Source: JAGLHV01 sp023132075 [NCBI: bacterium] (GTDB lineage: Bacteria; CBDUZB01; JAGLHV01). From it: 8,957 nt of DNA. The translations under genes and the position numbers were made by a program. The stretch is taken from positions 1 to 8,957 of the forward strand of contig JAGLYT010000047.1 of NCBI GenBank assembly GCA_023132075.1. Reading direction: 5' to 3'. The first letter of the stretch is position 1. The number at the start of each line of letters is the position of its first letter. Shown here in pieces: positions 1 to 8,957 of the stretch. Under the pieces are notes generated by a model, which was not told the DNA's origin, ran no database searches, and saw only the letters and a program-made list of their open reading frames with translations.

Positions 1-960
1 ATCTTTTATCGCATTAAAATTGCTTGCGTCCTTTACGCTCAACACTACCTTTATCCCCTCCGGCGTACTAACTATATTTCCTACTATCTGTCCCTTGCTG
101 TTTATCTCTATCTGCTTTATTTCCGCTAAGTTTATCTGTCTGCCTATCCCCTCGTTTTCTAACATATTCACAATTATTTCGTCTCTGACGACTAATTCAA
201 CCTGCTTATTGCTTGAAAATTCCTTTTGTATCTGTTCAATAAAAACCCTTCTGTCTGCTCTGGAAAGAGCTTCAATTTGAGAATTATAAATATTAATTTT
301 ATTCCTGGGAGCTAAAACAATAACCTCCTTATTTGAGTAACTAATATCAGCAGCTATCTTATCCATTATAAACTTACGATTATTGGAAGAAATTTCTATA
401 GTATTTAATACCACTTTCTGTATCGAAAGTTCAGCTATCTGAGTCCAGATTTCAGCAAGCTCTGCTTTATTATCTATTTTGCCTAAATCAAAAGCATATA
501 TCCCTGCCTCCTGGTCTATTATTCTCACTTTAACCTGTTCATTGATGCTTATAACCTTCTCAATCCCCGGAATTTTTGTCTGGCTGGCTAAAACATTATT
601 CGGAAGATTAAAGACCATATTTACTTCCCCGGTAATCAGCTTATTTATTCTATCATCAACAAAAACACGATGCTGATTACTATCAAAAACTTTACCTTCC
701 GCAATTATATTGACCTGTCGTTGTGCCGGATTATTTCCTATTTCTTCCATCGCCCAATCTCTCACCGTTGCTAAATCTATCACTTTTTTATTAACATCAC
801 GCAATTCTATACTCACATAATCAGACTGCTCGGCTATTTCTTTAATTTGTATTTTTACCGCTTCCATATTTTGAGAAGTAAGTGAGTTCACTCTAATTAC
901 ACTATATACTTTTTCTGAAATTGGTAAAGTTCCCTGCCTTATTTCTAATATCCCGTTGAG
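1..960 (-). other. Alpha/beta region B, residues 2666-2985, continuing past the window
   Basis: Same style as region A: strands such as YSVIRVNSL, DYVSIELRDVN, QVNIIAEG, VNMVFNLP, KVVLNTIEIS and KEVIVLAPRN, separated by helices of 15-20 residues (AELAEIWTQIAEL, RKFIMDKIAADI, RVFIEQIQKEF). Residues 2817-2882 align by eye with 2506-2574 of region A. The end at residue 2985 is mid-domain, so the protein continues. No known family recognised; a role as a C-terminal binding or assembly region is a guess. Confidence 0.6.
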
Positions 961-3900
961 TTTAGTAAAAGGAACCCCAAAATTTACTCCTGGAATAATA
1001 TATGGATTCAGTATTGGTTGCTGTTGCATCTGTTGATGCAGTTCCTGCATAAAAGGTATCTGTTTCTGATCATTTATTTCTTTTATTTTTATTTCTCTCC
1101 GTTGATCAAGATTCAAAGCCCGTTCTACCAAAGATTTTTCTACCCAGGCTCGAAGTTTCGGATCATTAATACAGGGCATTTCTATTTCCCCTTGTTTAAT
1201 GACAGCTATTTCTCTGGTTCTTGCTGTCTTTCCCCAAATAATAGTATAGCTCTTTTCTGTGCTCTCCAGTGCATTCTTTAACATTGTCAGTTTACTGTTA
1301 CTTATTGCTTTAGGGACATTCAATACTATCCTTTCTACATCCCCAATTTCTGCGTGTTTTTTTAACATATATTTCAAAACAGCAAATCCTATCGGACTAT
1401 CAATTTGTTTACTGCTTACGGAGATAACTTCTATTCCTTTTATTTTCCCTACCTTAACCACTGCCGTACTATAAAAAGTATTGTCTTTCTCATCAACTAT
1501 AGAAAAAGGACGTATTTCCACTTCCTTAGCTTTAGAATACAAACAAACATTTAAATCATCCACTATCTTAGCTGCTATTTCTTTACCGTTAACGGAAGGG
1601 ACATTTATTACTATTTTCTCCTTTTCAGAAGTGGTAAGTACCGATAACAGGTCCGTTTCAGTAACAAGATTAAACTGCTGATTGATATCTTCCAATTGTT
1701 CTGGTTTAAAAGTGAATTCTTTAATATCGTTGGATTTTACGGTCATTAATGGAACCTTTCCCCCTGAATGCAAAAGAGGATTAATTAATTTCTCAGCATA
1801 AACATCTTTCAACTGCTGAGCATTAACCGTATCACCTGAAGACATCCAAAGTGCCTGATGCCCATCGACATTATTAAGCACAATGGTTAAAGGAACTTTT
1901 ATTTCAACAGCAGTATTAGCCCATTCCGATAATTGTATGGTATTGTCTATGGCTATTTTTTCCGGCATCACAATAGTAATTTTACTTATTTTATTATTTT
2001 TAAAAGACGCTTCAACTTCTTTTGTTACCTTCCCGATGCGCGCGTTTTCCGCCACATTTATCTTCACTTTGTTGGCTACCTGTTCAACCCTGACCGATTC
2101 TACCTGATTTTGTAATTTTCCGGCCCTACTTTCTAAAATTTTTATGTCTTTAGGTCCGGTACCTTCGAAACTTCTGGCTACTTTAATCATATCGCTAAAA
2201 GTTCTCGCTTCAGCAAAAGATAAAGTTTCTTTTCCTTCGAATTTTAAACTATCATAATTTTTTATCCCATCCTTTATCTCTTTTATTTTAATGTCTAACT
2301 TTATCCTGGCATGAGCATCCAAACCCTTATCCTTAGACAATTCCGTAAGCAGAATTTCTATCTTTTCTCCGGTTTTAAACACTGTTTCGCGCGTAAATTC
2401 AAAGTCTTTTTGCATCTTCTTTAGCGATAAATCTACATCATTCCTTTTAACATTAAGCACTCTTTCTTCCAGGAATTTGCTGACTATATCGGCTTTGTCT
2501 TTCATACCGTCTATACCTTCCAGATCTTTACGATTGTAATGTTCAATTAAATCTTTCAATACCATAATGCCGTTTTTATGCCACAAGGTTTCCCGGATTT
2601 GAAATTTTAATCCTTCTGATCTAACAATCATCTGCTGCAGGAGAACAACCTCAGTAATTAATTTCATTGTTTCGGGATTAAGTTTTTCATTAATTTTTTT
2701 TGCGCTTGCTATTGAATTCTCTACTTTTTTACCTATATCTAAATTATTTATGTACTTATACTTAGCTTTTACTTCCAGGGCAATGTCTGAATTAATATAG
2801 AAATAAATATCTCCTAACTCTTTTGGATTCCGGCGAATTCTCCCCATCGCCTGAATAAGTAAGTCCTGGGTAAATCTCTCCACTCCGAAAAGCCGTAAAT
2901 TTATATTCCCTTTATAATCAACCCCGGTCAAACCCCGCTCATTAGAGATAATAATTCGTGCATCACCTTCAAACTTTGCGTATTTATTAATCATTGCTTC
3001 CGGTGTATTCGGTCCGATTTCTCTGACTACTTTTTCATATTTAATCTTCCCCTCAATCTCTCCATATTTATCCTTAAACAAAAATTCCAACCTTGCTTTT
3101 ACCTGCTCATACATCACCGCATCAATTATGCCGACAAGTTCCTTCCCTCCCTCTAGATAACTTTTAAAAACATCTTTAGCTACCTGATCAACCTCAAGTT
3201 TTTTTATTTCTTTAACCTTTCTGAAGTCCAGGTAAGAACCACTAATATCCATAGTTCTTCTTCCAATATGAGCTAAATATAAATCTTCCGCTGTTCTTAA
3301 TGTCCCTGTTGCCCCGGCATAGGAATCCCCTACATTTCTATGCATAACCTCGGCTAATGATGTCTGCATTTTAGTCTCGGAAACCTTCAATTTATATTTA
3401 TTCATAATATATTTTACCGAAATATCCACTTTTTGAGCATCCTTAGCAGCTGATTGAAGAGTATCTTTAGCATGTTTACAAGCCAGAGAGATCAAATAAG
3501 CAGGCTCACTGATTACCTGAGCATATTCGGCTTTTCCACCGGTACGAGGAATAATCTCTCCTACTTCTCTTCCTGCTATTTTGGCTTCTATGTTTCCTGG
3601 CATTACGACACTAAATTCCCCCTCGGAAAGAAATTTGGCACGAAATGCCGCATCAATCTGATGAGATTCAAAACCCTTGTCTTGTAATTTTTTTATTGCC
3701 TTATCACTTAAAGCATACTCTTTAGATTCTTTGCTGACATCAATATAAAAATCTGCTTTATTTTGTTCCACTTGCTTCAGGGTACCCTTTTTTAATTCCC
3801 CCTTGTCAATCATCCGGTCAATTTCCCTATAAACATCTATCATTTCACGGCAATCGGGAGGCTTAAGTGCTCGTGTCCTTTCCCCTCCGACAATATAACT

Positions 3901-6900
3901 TATTCGTTCGGTTAAAGACATATGAATTTCATCGAATCTGACTACATTCTGAGATTTTAAAGCTTTCATTAGTATTGGAGAATCAATCCGGTTATATAAA
4001 TGGCCTAAAGTATCCTTACTAAAAATAACCACTGTTTTGGAATCCTTAAGTGCTAACGCAAGTGCTGTCTCACCAAGCTTACCCTGTAAAGAAAGAATAT
4101 CCCCATTAACCAACTCCAACCCAAAATTCTTCATTAACTCCATATGCTTAAGCGTCCCTTGATCTAAAGTCCCTTCTATCATTTTTGCAATAGCGGAGGT
4201 TTTTTCCACAACCAGCATTGCTTTCATCTCTTCCCCTTTTAACAAATGCCTTAAAGCTATCTCCAATTCAAAACCTAAGGTCTTTCCTGCCGAAGTCCCT
4301 AAAGCTACAGTGTGATCCCGTAACATTTCAGCAATCATTGCTCTTTGCTGATTAAACTTTAATGGGTTAAGCCCTTTATGGTCCCATCCTTCTTTAGCAA
4401 AAATTCTGGCTACCTGTTCTACTAAAGCAGTCTTCATAGCAACCGGATCTATTTCTGTAATCAACCTTTCTATTTGCTTCGAATTGAGTCTTTTCTTTAT
4501 ACCATATTCTTCACACAATCTTGCCCACTCAATCCCAACAGTTGTGTCTTTAAAAAGCGTTCCCTCTAAAGCACTCTTATTTTTCCCTTCCATAAAATTT
4601 GCCCATAATTCGTGTGATAACTTAAAATCTTTTTTAAAAGCGTCATAATTATTTCTCCATTTGACTCCATAAATGTCTCCTGCCTCTTTTTCTAAACGTT
4701 CTATTCTTATCTCTATATCTTTTATCTCCTCAAACCGTGATCTTAAATCTTTTATATCATTCAGCTTGCTTTCTAATTTTTTTATTCCTTCCATTTTTTT
4801 TATTTCTATTTCGACTTCTTTGAGATCTTTTATGCCGGTTTCTTTTTTAAGTTTGCTGATTTCTAATTTAACATCACTAATCTGCAGTTTAGCTACAATA
4901 ATATGGTAAAGTAATCCCTTATTGGCTAAAACAACCGCATCAACTAATAATCTAGCATCTTTCAAATCCTTAATCGTTGTTATTTCGAATTTTATATCAC
5001 CAGCTTTAACTATTACAGATTCACCTCTTTCTATTTTCGATTCCATACCTTTTTCATACAATTGGTCTTTAAGGCTTTTTATATCCATGTGTTTTGACCG
5101 GTACATTTTTCCCGCTAATTCAGCGTATTTTCCTTTAATTCCGTACAGCTCTTTTATAATTAAAATATTTTCTCTGGTAAGTTTCCATGCCGTTCCCTCT
5201 ATTTCAAATTCCGGGAAATTTTTGGGATCTATTTTTTTCTCATTAATCAAATCTATTATTTCATTCTTTTGCTCTCCCGGTAACTTCTCAAAATTGCAAG
5301 TCGTTTCCACCATTTCGCTCTCTAATTTGTCTCGCAGCTGTTCAAATTTTCTAGTTGCACTATTAAGTTCCTTTTGTAAAGACCTCATACTCCTTGGTTC
5401 TGAAATTTTTATATTCAAGCCCGCTTTCTTTGCCTGAAGCTGGGCTATTTTCCATCCAAGCTGAAGACATTCCAGCTTAGCTTCCAGTTTTTTTATCTTA
5501 AGCTCTAATCCACCTTCTATCATTTCCTGTCTTATTTCCTGCCTTGTCTCCTCTATTTTACGCCCATATTCAACTACTATATCCACCGTTGCCGCTTGTT
5601 TTTCAATTTTCCGGTATTCTCCCCATTTCTGGTCTGCTAATTTATAATCACCATTTCTCTTGGCTATTTCTATTTCAAGAGTGATTTCAGCCATTTTATC
5701 ATACATTCTAATAAATTCCTGTTCATATTTAATCCTGTGTGCCTTCTCCCGAATTTCTATTGCCCTCTTAGTATTCTCAAACTTAATTTCATTGTTAATA
5801 ATTTTATCGGCAATCATTTCCTTTATCTCTTTAGAGTCTATTATATCTTCCAATTTTAACTTTACTTGCTTCCCATTGGATAATTCAAGTACAACATCTT
5901 CCTTTCCTTTAAAAACAGCCTCTATCAATTTTTCTTTTAACAACGATGATATTCTGGAATCTTCTAAAAACAACTTAATTAAGCTCTTTTTAAATTCTGT
6001 AGTCATTTCTATTTTAAAACCGTTTTCGTTAAGTGCTCCTTCTTTAAACATTTTTTCTATTTTTTCTATTTTTGCTTCTCCCTCTAAGTTTTTAAATAAA
6101 GAATCTAGTATGTATTTAGCTGCTACCACATCACCTTTTTCTATCCGCTTGCTAAGTTCATTTTTTATAGAATTGATCAATGCTTCTTCTTTAAGTCCGG
6201 TTTTTTTAGCTATTTCCAATATTACATCCTTATATAAATTTTCGCTTGTGGGTACGGCTTCTAATTCTTTTGTTTCTATCCTGGTAAGCCCATCCTTAGC
6301 TTTCAATTCGGATAAACGTTTCTCTGTGAGTATATTTATTAATGCTTCTATTTCCAGAGTAGTAAGCATTTCCCTAATTTTCGATTTTGCTATTTTCTTA
6401 ATTTCAACCTCGTCCAGATATTTTGTAAACTCAAGAAACATTTTTAGATCTCCCGCTTCTTTCAGTTTCATCTTCAACATATATGCTTTAATCAATTCCA
6501 CTTTTAAAGATGTCACTTCCAAGCCTAATTCCTGGGCTAATCCATTAAGCGTAATATCCCTTCCTTCTAATCTTATAACCCCTTCCTTAAGCAAAACAGA
6601 AAGTTTGTCCTTACCTAAAATTTCTAAGAGTAGCTGCACCTGGAAGTCCTTTACTTTTATGTCTAATTTCTTAGCAAACATATGTATATCCAATCCATCT
6701 ATTTTCATCTCTCCTTTAAGAAAACTCAACATATCACCCTTAAAATCCCTCAACCCCTCAAATAATTTACCTTCCAATAATCTGGTTTTAAATACTTCCA
6801 GTTTAAGACTGTTTATTTCTTTCACATCCAATTTTAAACCTAATTCTTTAGCTAAACTTATGATATCAGATTCCTTTAGATCCTTTATTTTAGCTAACTC

Positions 6901-8957
6901 AATTAATTTTGTTTTTAATGCTTCTAATTTAACCATTTTTATTTCTTCCGGCTTTAAATCTAAACCAAATTTTTCAGCTAAAGTTTTAATCTCAAGCTCT
7001 ATATCCTTTAAATCCTTTATTTTAGCTAACTCAATTAATTTTATTTTTAATGCCTCTAATTTAACCATCTTTATTTCTTCCGGCTTTAAATCTAAACCAA
7101 ATTTTTCAGCTAAAGCCATGATATCAGATTCCTTTAGATCATTTATTTTAGCTAACTCAATTAATTTTACCTTTAATACTTCTAATTTAAGAGCATCTAT
7201 CTCTTTTGGCTTCAGTTTTAAATCCAGCAAATCTTTAGCAATCTCCTTTATCTCTACATCTCTTAAATCTCTGATTTTGCATATTTCCAGCAACTTTATT
7301 TTAAGTGCTTCTATTTTAAGGGTTTTTAGTTCTGTTGGATTCAATTTTATCCCAAATTGATCCGCAAAAGCCTGAACATCTATTTTCCCTACATCCGATT
7401 TAATCCAATCCTTTAATTCCAATTTCAACAAATCAAGACTCAGTAATTTCATTTCTTTCGCATTTAATTTCAAATCAAACTTATTCGCCAGAGTCTGAAT
7501 GTCTTTTATATCTTTTATTTCCTTGTTTTTTAACATTATTGCTAATTCCTCTTTAAAGAGCTCAAATTTAAAATCTCTTAACTTCAACCCCATCGTTTCA
7601 GCTAACATATTCAAGTCCATCTCTTTTCCGCCAAATTTTATTTCAAATTCTCCGTTAATAAAACTGAATATATCTCCTTTAATTTCTTTTCCAAAAAGTA
7701 ATTTATTTAATTTCAACCCTTCCAATACCTGCAGCTTGCAAATAGACAGCTTAAGTTCTTTAAGCTGCACATCGGTCAAATCTTTTATACCAAATTCCAA
7801 AGCTAACTCTTTTAACTTTATTAGATCAACACTTTCTACCTTTGCTAATTCCAATATCTTCGCTTTGAATACTTTAAAGTTAAGGGCATTTAAATCTGCA
7901 CTTTCTAAACCCAAATCCTTAACAAACTCCTTAATATCGTCAATTTTTATGTCTTTTAACTCTTTTCCTTCAATCTTTAATATTTCCAGAAACTTTATTT
8001 TTATTATTTCTAACCTGATATCTTTTAACTCCATATCGGTTAATTTTAGATCCAGTTTTTTGACAACAGCCTTTAATACTTCAATATCTTTTAAATCTTT
8101 TATCTCTATCTTTTTCATGTCAAACATTTCCACTTCAAACATCTTCAACAAAGTCAGTTCCAACGCTTTTGTCTCCAGGGCCTTTATCTCTACCTTATCT
8201 AATTTCCAGTCTTTAATTAGAGTATTAAGCTCTGCCCTGGTTATTTCCTTGATTTTAGCTAATTCTACCAATTTCATTTCAAGTAAGGCTGTTTTTATAT
8301 CGCTTAACTGCTTGGGGGATAATTCCAAACCAAAATTATCAGCCAGAGCTTTTTGAAGGTCTTTAAGCTCTATATTCCTTATATCTTTAACACTAAACTG
8401 CTCAAGTATTTTTTCCTTAAATAGTTCAAATTTAAGTGAGTTCAAATCTATATCGAATTTCCTGGCTAATCCCTCTATGCTCAGACCGGACTCTCTAAAT
8501 CTTATCTCCACTTTACCTAAAATAAAATCACCCAAAGTTAAGCTTGCGTCTCCCAATTTCAACCCTTCAAATATCTGCAGCTTACAAATAGACAGCTTAA
8601 GTTCTTTAAGCTGCACATCGGTCAAATCTTTTATACCAAATTCCAAAGCTAACTCTTTTAACTTTATTAGATCAACACTTTCTACCTTTGCTAATTCCAA
8701 TATCTTCGCTTTGAATACTTTAAAGTTAAGGGCACTTATATCTACTCCTTCTAAACCAAACCGGTCGACTAACTCTTTAATATCGTCAATTTTTATGTCT
8801 TTTAACTCTTTTCCTTCAATCTTTAATATTTCCAGAAACTTTATTTTTATTATTTCTAACCTGATATCTTTTAACTCCATATCGGTCAATTTTAAATCCA
8901 GTTCTTTGACAATTTTATTTAATAATGTAAGGTCTTTTAAATCTCTTATCTCTATCT
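1..8957 (-). CDS. Giant multidomain protein with central SecA-like ATPase motor; partial at both ends
   Basis: One frame is open across the window on the minus strand: 2,985 codons with no TAA, TAG or TGA, checked line by line. The first in-window Met (residue 26, 8878-8880) is not a credible start, because recognisable repeat sequence precedes it and has a near-identical counterpart further along. The stop lies beyond position 1. In order the chain holds helical repeats (1-825), a helical region (826-1059), coiled coils (about 1060-1225 and 1350-1426), a SecA-like DEAD motor (about 1506-2065), a helical tail (2066-2285) and an alpha/beta repeat region (2286-2985). I see no signal peptide or membrane segment in this part. 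Cysteine is rare (10 by my reading), and there is no SecA-type zinc-binding cluster. The motor suggests ATP-driven movement of a polypeptide or of the protein itself; the real function is unknown. Giant genes of this style are known in some uncultivated bacteria. The open frame is certain; the function is inference. Confidence 0.96.
961..1080 (-). other. Gln/Pro-rich linker, residues 2626-2665
   Basis: A short low-complexity stretch, QELHQQMQQQPILNPYIIPG, then VNFGVPFTK. It lies between two alpha/beta blocks, contains a run rich in Gln and five Pro in 40 residues, and has no helix or strand pattern of its own. It is most likely a flexible hinge. Confidence 0.7.
1081..2100 (-). other. Alpha/beta region A, residues 2286-2625
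   Basis: Alternating hydrophobic strands and amphipathic helices. Strand ends often run into a Pro: ITIVMPEK (Pro2331), KIVINVPS (Pro2453) and RIVLNVPK (Pro2548). The segment starting KGIEVISVSSKQIDSP at 2506 pairs with IVLNVPKAISNSKLTMLKNA, then SYTIIW. This layout recurs in the last part of the window. I do not recognise the fold. It is plainly different in composition from the repeat array: more Val, Asn, Thr and Ser, and fewer Lys and Leu. Confidence 0.6.
2101..2760 (-). other. Helical region after the motor, residues 2066-2285
   Basis: Charged, mostly helical sequence follows the motor, including VENSIASAKKINEKLNPETM, IVRSEGLKFQIRETLWHKNG and LEGIDGMKDKADIVSKFLEE. In SecA a long helical scaffold follows at this point (AIEKAQKKVEGRNFDIRK and onward). 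The helix beginning VENSIASAKKINEKL may be its counterpart, but no clear wing domain or zinc-binding Cys-x-Cys tail is present. It bridges to the alpha/beta region. Confidence 0.5.
2830..2940 (-). other. Motor motifs V and VI
   Basis: Residues 2006-2014 read ERGLTGVDY and residues 2035-2042 read QAMGRIRR, linked by a strand NINLRLFGVERF. The Gln and the Arg residues (Arg2039, Arg2042) match the SF2 Q-x-x-G-R-x-x-R motif VI that supplies the arginine finger. Spacing between the two motifs is shorter than in SecA, where a longer segment precedes RGRSGRQGD. Confidence 0.85.
3541..3780 (-). other. Preprotein cross-linking-domain-like insertion, residues 1726-1805
   Basis: Between the DEIH box and GATGT the chain shows the SecA cross-linking domain pattern: FYIDVSKESKEYALSDKAI (SecA D-Y-x-V-D-E-K-x-R-x-V-x-L-T-E), then HQIDAAFRAKFL (SecA I-D-x-A-L-R-A-H), then a strand with SVVMPG, then IAGREVGEIIPRTGGKAEYA (SecA TGR-x-x-x-x-R-R-x-x-x-G-x-x-Q-A). 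In SecA this domain clamps the moving polypeptide. It separates this motor from ordinary SF2 helicases, which lack it. Similarity is judged by eye from short motifs. Confidence 0.78.
3922..3933 (-). other. Walker B / DEAD-box variant DEIH
   Basis: Residues 1675-1678 read DEIH, preceded by hydrophobic VVRF, as expected for the strand before a DExH box. Asp1675 and Glu1676 would coordinate magnesium and activate water. Canonical SecA has DEVD; the His at the fourth position is the DExH form. The following SLTERISYIVGGERTRAL parallels the SecA segment after DEVD (SILIDEARTPLIISG). Confidence 0.9.
4279..4299 (-). other. Walker A / P-loop GTSAGKT
   Basis: Residues 1553-1559 read GTSAGKT, fitting GxxxxGK[ST] for nucleotide phosphate binding. 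Lys1558 and Thr1559 are the expected catalytic residues. SecA usually has TGEGKT at this place, so the loop is intact but not the standard SecA form. Confidence 0.93.
4678..4908 (-). other. Predicted coiled coil II, residues 1350-1426
   Basis: A second charged helical stretch with heptad character, including ISKLKKETGIKDLKEVEIEI, KKLESKLNDIKDLRSRFEEI and IRIERLEKEAG. It ends about 80 residues before the motor and is joined to it by a Trp-containing helical segment (KWRNNYDAF, HELWANFMEG, EWARLCEEYG). Between the two coiled coils lies a mixed segment, residues 1226-1349, that I do not recognise. Confidence 0.6.
5281..5778 (-). other. Predicted coiled coil I, residues 1060-1225
   Basis: Long charged stretch with heptad-like spacing of Leu, Ile and Ala and many Glu, Lys, Arg and Gln residues, for example RKIEETRQEIRQEM, LELKIKKLEAKLECLQ and LQKELNSATRKFEQLRDKL. 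Short breaks occur around the NGDY and SEPRS segments. Coiled coils often serve as dimerisation or lever elements; here it sits between the repeat array and the motor. The call is from pattern only, without a scored prediction. Confidence 0.65.
5779..6480 (-). other. Helical region between repeat array and coiled coil, residues 826-1059
   Basis: Mostly predicted alpha-helical by composition, with weak echoes of the upstream repeats, for example LEIAKKTGLKEEALINSI near residues 894-911. One short hairpin-like stretch stands out, VVLELSNGKQVKLKLEDI at residues 1001-1018: two alternating hydrophobic strands around a Ser-Asn-Gly turn. I recognise no family. It may be a decayed part of the repeat array or a spacer that sets the distance to the motor. 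Confidence 0.5.
6874..7113 (-). repeat. Near-identical adjacent 44-codon repeats
   Basis: Residues 615-650 (7006-7113) and 659-694 (6874-6981) are the same 36-residue sequence with one substitution (Ile to Thr). The shared core includes LAEKFGLDLKPEEIKMVKLE. The two 108-base segments differ at only about four positions. A third, more diverged unit lies just upstream in the protein at about 570-610. This is a separate and recent unit-level duplication, distinct from the 846-bp event. Confidence 0.9.
7711..8556 (-). repeat. 846-bp tandem duplication, complete downstream unit
   Basis: One full 846-base unit. Its first 401 bases (7711-8111) correspond to 8557-8957. The remaining 445 bases (8112-8556) have no counterpart visible in the window, because the other copy is cut by the window edge. 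Identical tracts are 7739-7888 and 7931-8040. The encoded 282 residues contain six of the roughly 40-residue units plus one long variant unit, so the duplication copied a higher-order block and not a single unit. Confidence 0.88.
8557..8957 (-). repeat. 846-bp tandem duplication, protein-proximal copy (cut by the window end)
   Basis: This stretch matches 7711-8111 at a constant offset of 846 bases (exactly 282 codons), so the frame is kept. Two tracts are identical to the other copy: 8585-8734 (150 bases) and 8777-8886 (110 bases). The 42 bases between them differ at roughly a third of positions. It encodes residues 1-133, including KLTDMELKDIRLEIIKIKF and KVFKAKILELAKVESVDL. Identity at synonymous sites points to a recent duplication or ongoing gene conversion. 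The copy runs past the window edge, so more units may follow. Confidence 0.93.

Follow-up and report, generated by a model that had tools for sequence, protein, structure and literature searches.

SecA acts in trans on unfolded polypeptide chains. In 2023, West-Roberts et al. are said to have reported that most full-length giant proteins of Omnitrophota and other groups carry divergent SecA DEAD domains together with transmembrane regions. It is an open question how proteins many thousands of residues long are produced and exported by cells. Passages of PMC10066038 and of PMC12057145 (which cites West-Roberts et al. 2023) show that giant proteins in Omnitrophota and relatives have already been published, and PMC5562318 describes an engineered SecY–SecA fusion that translocates protein; a literature search pairing ‘SecA’ with ‘Omnitrophota’ as whole words, which did not cover preprints, found nothing. 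Here we analyze a stretch of 8,957 bases (the window), which is the whole of contig C332 (JAGLYT010000047.1) of the draft genome G000 (JAGLHV01 sp023132075; 1.87 Mb in 389 contigs). The window encodes part of a giant protein with an ATPase motor of superfamily 2 (SF2) embedded in it. We describe this motor as SecA-shaped: it is probably but not certainly derived from SecA, and its membership of the SecA family is unproven. We give an even chance to the reading that it is a membrane-anchored translocase, a SecA-built SF2 motor on a helical stalk, which belongs to an export or surface apparatus specific to the lineage. Our sample of the phylum consists of three genomes of a single genus, G000 and its sister genomes G001 and G002.

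The open frame and the parts of its motor are as follows (window positions, strand, description):

1–8957, minus strand: giant-protein open frame of 2,985 codons, open at both contig ends, with no start or stop fixed inside
2770–4446, minus strand: SF2 motor of SecA-like build, residues 1504–2062
4327–4350, minus strand: Q-motif-like QQRAMIAE, residues 1536–1543
4279–4299, minus strand: Walker A, GTSAGKT, residues 1553–1559
3922–3933, minus strand: Walker B, DEIH, residues 1675–1678
3352–3882, minus strand: insert between motifs II and III, residues ∼1692–1868, with the place and size of the SecA cross-linking domain, unrecognised by profile
3301–3315, minus strand: motif III, GATGT, residues 1881–1885
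2914–2943, minus strand: motif V, NERGLTGVDY, residues 2005–2014
2827–2853, minus strand: motif VI, QAMGRIRRN, residues 2035–2043

The SF2 ATPase motifs (Walker A, the DE box, III, V and VI) are all present in SecA order. The successive distances from Walker A to Walker B, motif III, motif V and motif VI are ∼121, 207, 126 and 27 residues in the window versus ∼105, 184, 117 and 42 residues in the canonical SecA of G002 (L021). The gap between motifs II and III is 175–250 residues in 33 members of the motor family; it is 160–186 residues in 13 out of 15 SecA entries (271 in one more, with the last missed by the search pattern) and 24–38 residues in eight RecG entries, where the family and the SecA/RecG sets were measured slightly differently (by a few residues). 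An earlier note on this DNA had placed a complete SecA-like motor inside a giant repeat protein at residues 1506–2065 (nucleotides 4440–2761). These coordinates are correct, the motifs that it named are present, their order and rough spacing are indeed those of SecA, and an SF2 motor of SecA-like build does sit within the one uninterrupted frame of a giant repeat protein.

Catalytic residues were compared in an alignment of 34 motors (without L063, which is a fragment, and L048, which duplicates G201). All 27 motors that cover Walker A keep its lysine (the other seven are extracts beginning at or near that motif), all 33 that cover the DE pair keep it, and the Q, R and R of motif VI are kept in 34 out of 34; two positions are laxer, the motif V aspartate with 27 out of 34 and the glycine of motif VI with 22 out of 34. 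Outside the genus, motor identity falls to 17–22% with the main catalytic residues still kept. Since the motif residues are kept across 34 motors, the motif set is not a product of chance, and the motor is apparently an intact, active-looking ATPase. Its predicted structure (851 amino acids, from a two-row alignment) reached a predicted local distance difference test (pLDDT) score of only 34; we therefore set the model aside for fold comparison, and it does not document the two RecA folds. In the comparison of G000 with G001, the giant has changed more quickly than housekeeping genes: the ratio of nonsynonymous to synonymous substitution (dN/dS) is 0.33–0.58 in the parts of its motor and 0.78 in the region upstream, versus 0.04–0.14 in secY and secA. 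Such a pace, like the seven motors in which the motif V aspartate varies, would suit a decayed SecA or SF2 domain that no longer turns over ATP and is kept only for a structural or regulatory role; against this, the Walker A lysine, the DE pair and motif VI persist wherever they are covered and in several groups, and dN/dS of the motor measured against G002 is 0.21–0.25. We consider decay very improbable and rejected it, as the main catalytic residues are intact.

Part of the evidence for a SecA origin comes from profile comparisons (the hhalign filter kept 33 of the 34 rows of the family profile; an earlier comparison with a three-motor profile was too shallow). The 34-member profile matches SecA at 98.0% (score 118) over 460 collinear columns that run across both ATPase domains and the insert; the match to RecG, a profile of similar depth, is at 93.7% (score 69) over 153 columns, all within the first domain, and that to DEAD-box proteins, a shallow control of two near-identical sequences, is at 90.8% over 127 columns. 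A reversed SecA control gave no match to the family profile. When a profile of 26 sequences was searched against the PDB, Thermotoga SecA came out on top with an E-value of 7.5e-6, the next different protein being at 0.012; the same database returned nothing relevant for queries of one or three sequences, and only chance-level matches for a query of six.

Foremost among the rival readings is a nucleic-acid motor, in which a RecG- or DEAD-type SF2 helicase or translocase with an unusual, large insert was captured by the giant and works on DNA or RNA, e.g. in DNA uptake or defence. Collinearity over the full length and the profile search of the PDB speak for SecA instead, and so does the insert between motifs II and III, which is SecA-sized and absent from RecG. 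A nucleic-acid motor also fits poorly with the signal-like start and the many hydrophobic segments of the complete copy of the giant in G002, and with the SecA motors and SecY found in other giants of the genus (see below).

Members of the family occur in several groups, nearly always within giant open frames. A three-motor profile matched six out of 386 genomes at E ≤ 1e-6, three of them beyond the phylum's own. Among 340 genomes from the phylum to which G201 belongs, a six-row profile matched 35; in 34 of these the frame with the best match is 1,453 to 18,984 amino acids long, and in the remaining one it is 189 amino acids long. In the phylum of G090 the family was seen in one genome out of 44, G090 itself. 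With a 26-row profile, 21 of the same 386 genomes were matched: eight strongly (E < 1e-14; best matches in frames of 2,321–13,300 amino acids) and 13 weakly (E of 1e-8 to 1e-5; frames of 482–944 amino acids). A search of viral contigs and plasmids, though not of phages, found no relative at the thresholds used.

Several results weigh against a SecA-built motor, and some of them are what a nucleic-acid motor would lead one to expect. When the ATPase halves are compared alone, RecG scores slightly ahead of SecA (64 versus 53 for the first nucleotide-binding domain, NBD1, and 66 versus 60 for the second, NBD2), and for NBD1 the DEAD-box control (56) also edges SecA. Pfam yields a single match within the motor, to DEAD, and this stays below threshold (E of 0.0003–0.016). 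Among the 13 weak matches in ordinary proteins, the nine that we inspected are, judged by their motifs, of RecG/Mfd type and not of SecA type. Other SecA chains in the PDB search (2ipc, 1nkt and 4uaq; E of 0.25–2.2) rank no better than helicases. The insert matches the SecA cross-linking domain without significance (E of 0.014–0.14), its best spot being in the correct register, and the region after NBD2, in a shallow alignment of three sequences, gives no significant match (E of 0.12) to the part of SecA with the helical scaffold and two-helix finger (611–840). In a phylogenetic tree (quick maximum-likelihood, long branches) the family is a clade of its own, with 19 out of 19 rows together (98); it is drawn weakly beside DEAD-box proteins (74), leaving its sister unresolved. 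Because the halves taken alone score slightly better with RecG, the insert and scaffold are unmatched and the sister is not settled, we call the motor SecA-shaped instead of plain SecA. For the earlier note this means that the word ‘complete’ is not sustained: neither Pfam nor NCBIfam holds a SecA model (SecA_DEAD, SecA_PP_bind or others) that matches the window protein. Its cross-linking-domain-like insert stands in place and size and lacks a significant profile match; of its SecA identity the build stands, and the family membership is unproven. On balance we regard a nucleic-acid motor as unlikely, though it is the rival to be taken most seriously.

The motor fusion is present in all three genomes of the phylum (the window, G001 C379 and G002 C178), so the conservation that the earlier note had looked to among homologues is there. 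The motor is 68% identical to that of the window in G001 C379 (L012, JAGLHV010000067) and 48–50% in G002 C178 (L015), and by BLASTP the collinearity extends far past the motor, at 63% over 2,387 alignment columns for L012 and 38% over 2,812 for G002. The gene is complete in G002 C178, a contig of 40 kb: it encodes 4,235 amino acids, with an ATG at 3040 and a stop at 15747. Its order is a signal-like start and hydrophobic segments, then repeats, then the motor. By eye the N-terminus resembles a signal peptide; counting that segment, a hydropathy scan finds 12 hydrophobic segments in total at a threshold of 1.6, and 19 in the first 782 residues at a threshold of 1.2. The window's own part has a single weak hydrophobic segment (residues 1336–1354), because the N-terminus is missing from it. 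As the contig ends there, the window copy is probably without its membrane domain in the sequence at hand, and past the contig end it probably has the same polytopic membrane domain as the G002 copy. Directly upstream of the G002 giant (L015, 1009–2232 and 2268–2684) are two small TadE/G-like genes, below the Pfam cut-offs (0.0045 and 0.078).

A single short contig is open to the suspicion of an assembly or binning artefact, i.e. a chimeric fusion or a contig misplaced in G000. The synonymous divergence (dS) invites the same suspicion: for secY (L043–L045), G000 is closer to G002 (0.26) than to G001 (0.64), whereas for the giant's motor (window 2566–4608 against L012 and L015) the opposite holds, with 1.70 for G000–G002 and 0.42 for G000–G001. 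A misplaced contig would give this pattern, and it would leave the fusion itself true. Replacement, transfer or paralogy would explain the discordance too. Three assemblies carry the same collinear fusion, one of them on a 40 kb contig with both start and stop; a pure artefact was rejected on this ground, and an artefact of any of these kinds has only the slightest probability.

Each of the three genomes has a canonical secA, apart from the giant as the earlier note had thought it might be: that of G000 is on C370, cut by the contig end, and the sister frames are 883 and 893 amino acids long. Each also has a canonical secY (on C160 in G002). A survey with PF07517 matched 378 out of 386 genomes.

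Other giants of the genus carry clearer SecA-type motors. The genome of the window has a second giant (L007, on G000 C301), a frame of 3,269 amino acids open at both ends, in which SecA_DEAD, SecA_PP_bind and P-loop_SecA pass the Pfam cut-offs; the NCBIfam models SecA (2.9e-63) and SecA2 (3e-53) both stay below their curated cut-offs. L007 has a clear SecA-type motor preceded by what, from its motifs, appears to be the C-terminal half of another, cut by the contig end (residues 188–466 and 2242–2886), and its hydrophobic segments are at 1164–1303 and 2991–3235. In G002, C128 (L039, protein P0002) is a frame of 2,429 amino acids, open at both ends, that fuses SecY (2.6e-47, residues 206–514) to SecA_DEAD (3.9e-8, residues 712–883), ∼200 residues apart; its SecY part matches NCBIfam SecY at 4e-40 and SecY2 at 1.2e-21, below the curated cut-offs. 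The motors of C301 and C128 group with SecA in the tree (95). This is the only SecY–SecA fusion seen in the three genomes; a search in the phylum of G201, in which two candidates per genome were scored, matched 310 out of 334 genomes, and among the matches listed there was only the SecY part, in frames of 386–612 amino acids. A further giant starts at 17218 of G002 C178, ∼1.5 kb after the motor giant: its frame of 7,631 amino acids runs off the contig end and has SecA_DEAD (1e-11) and TPR repeats. A module of ∼90–290 residues recurs among these proteins, at 1838–2125 of L007, at 3101–3270 and 7281–7572 of the second giant of G002 C178, and at 3–113 of P0002, where it precedes the SecY part.

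The mechanism that we propose for the membrane-anchored translocase is the following. A giant protein anchored in the membrane would bear an active, ATP-driven SF2 motor on a helical stalk, the motor being made of two ATPase halves and an extra domain of ∼180 residues that separates motif II from motif III. The motor would face the cytoplasm, and the insert may grip unfolded polypeptide, which the motor would thread through the inner membrane within an export or surface apparatus particular to the lineage. That apparatus would most likely serve the giant proteins themselves, and would act beside the housekeeping Sec system, not in its place. We infer both the substrate and the direction of the motor. 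To the points weighed above have to be added that neither Pfam nor NCBIfam finds a SecY signature in the N-terminal membrane region of the G002 relative, that the hydropathy scan leaves its topology open and does not establish the membrane side of the motor, and that the tree leaves the motor of the 7,631-residue giant outside the SecA group.

A stronger proposal is that the giants of this and other groups hold their own Sec-like export machine in cis, with the SecA-shaped clade, the SecA-derived motors and the SecY channel of the companion proteins threading the giants independently of housekeeping Sec. We put this forward tentatively, as possible but doubtful; if true, it would make the SecY–SecA fusion of G002 C128 a natural translocon in a single chain. 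Quite improbable, in our view, is an actuator on its own chain, whose motor would pull or push the repeat stalk or the C-terminal region and so move, extend or retract a surface structure instead of exporting a separate substrate. The earlier note had named a pull on the motor's own chain, and a predatory machine as well, as speculative roles. The layout lends itself to an actuator, with long helical repeats on one side of the motor and ∼900 or more residues on the other, hydrophobic segments in the same chain as the motor in G002, and Tad-like genes (below Pfam cut-offs) upstream there; but nothing bears on it directly, the repeats are predicted to fold stably, and the mode of action of SecA, in trans and on unfolded chains, is a different one.

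The rest of the window protein flanks the motor:

6316–8955, minus strand: helical repeat region, residues 1 to ∼880, in units of roughly 36–43 residues, read from the sequence
4546–6315, minus strand: charged helical linker or coiled-coil-like region as judged by eye, residues ∼881–1470, boundaries approximate
1–2769, minus strand: C-terminal region, residues 2063–2985; in the G002 relative the chain extends past the window's end

Repeat residues 470–760 (nucleotides 6676–7548) are predicted to be all-helical (pLDDT 75), short helices taking turns with long ones, and this model matched no solved fold at E ≤ 0.001. No Pfam or NCBIfam family passes its cut-off in the C-terminal region, nor anywhere else in the window protein. 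As the motor itself stays below these cut-offs, motors of this kind are easily missed in annotation.

Compared with known systems, the motor shares with SecA the set and order of motifs, a SecA-sized insert between motifs II and III, a profile collinear over 460 columns and its best PDB relative by profile search. It differs in sitting in a giant protein, in matching no SecA family model, in an insert and scaffold that are not recognised, in forming its own clade and in not being the housekeeping copy. With the SF2 helicases of the RecG, Mfd and DEAD-box types it has the ATPase halves in common, the motif VI pattern QxxGRxxR being common to RecG and Mfd; the stretch from motif II to motif III sets it apart from RecG (24–38 residues in eight sequences versus 175–250 in the family). 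As in accessory Sec (SecA2/SecY2), the housekeeping SecA is accompanied by another motor of SecA type, and C301 and C128 do match SecA2 (3e-53) and SecY2 (1.2e-21); but they fit general SecA (2.9e-63) and SecY (4e-40) better and are built into giants, and the window protein matches no SecA2 model in NCBIfam. With the giants reported to carry divergent SecA domains it has in common a giant frame with a SecA-type motor (2,985 codons in the window; 4,235 amino acids in G002); their transmembrane regions are reportedly numerous, and here the G002 relative has 12–19 hydrophobic segments and the window part, from which the N-terminus is missing, one weak segment. Taking that report as the footing, what would be new here is a SecA-shaped motor clade missed by Pfam and NCBIfam in the window, its presence in a very small phylum, and a natural SecY–SecA fusion in a companion giant. 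A conserved, apparently intact built-in motor and a natural fusion of this kind make the question of how giants are exported testable with purified domains. The engineered fusion (PMC5562318) has, as in G002 C128, a channel and a motor in a single chain; that one was made in the laboratory, whereas the fusion of G002 C128 is natural, divergent and part of a frame of at least 2,429 amino acids.

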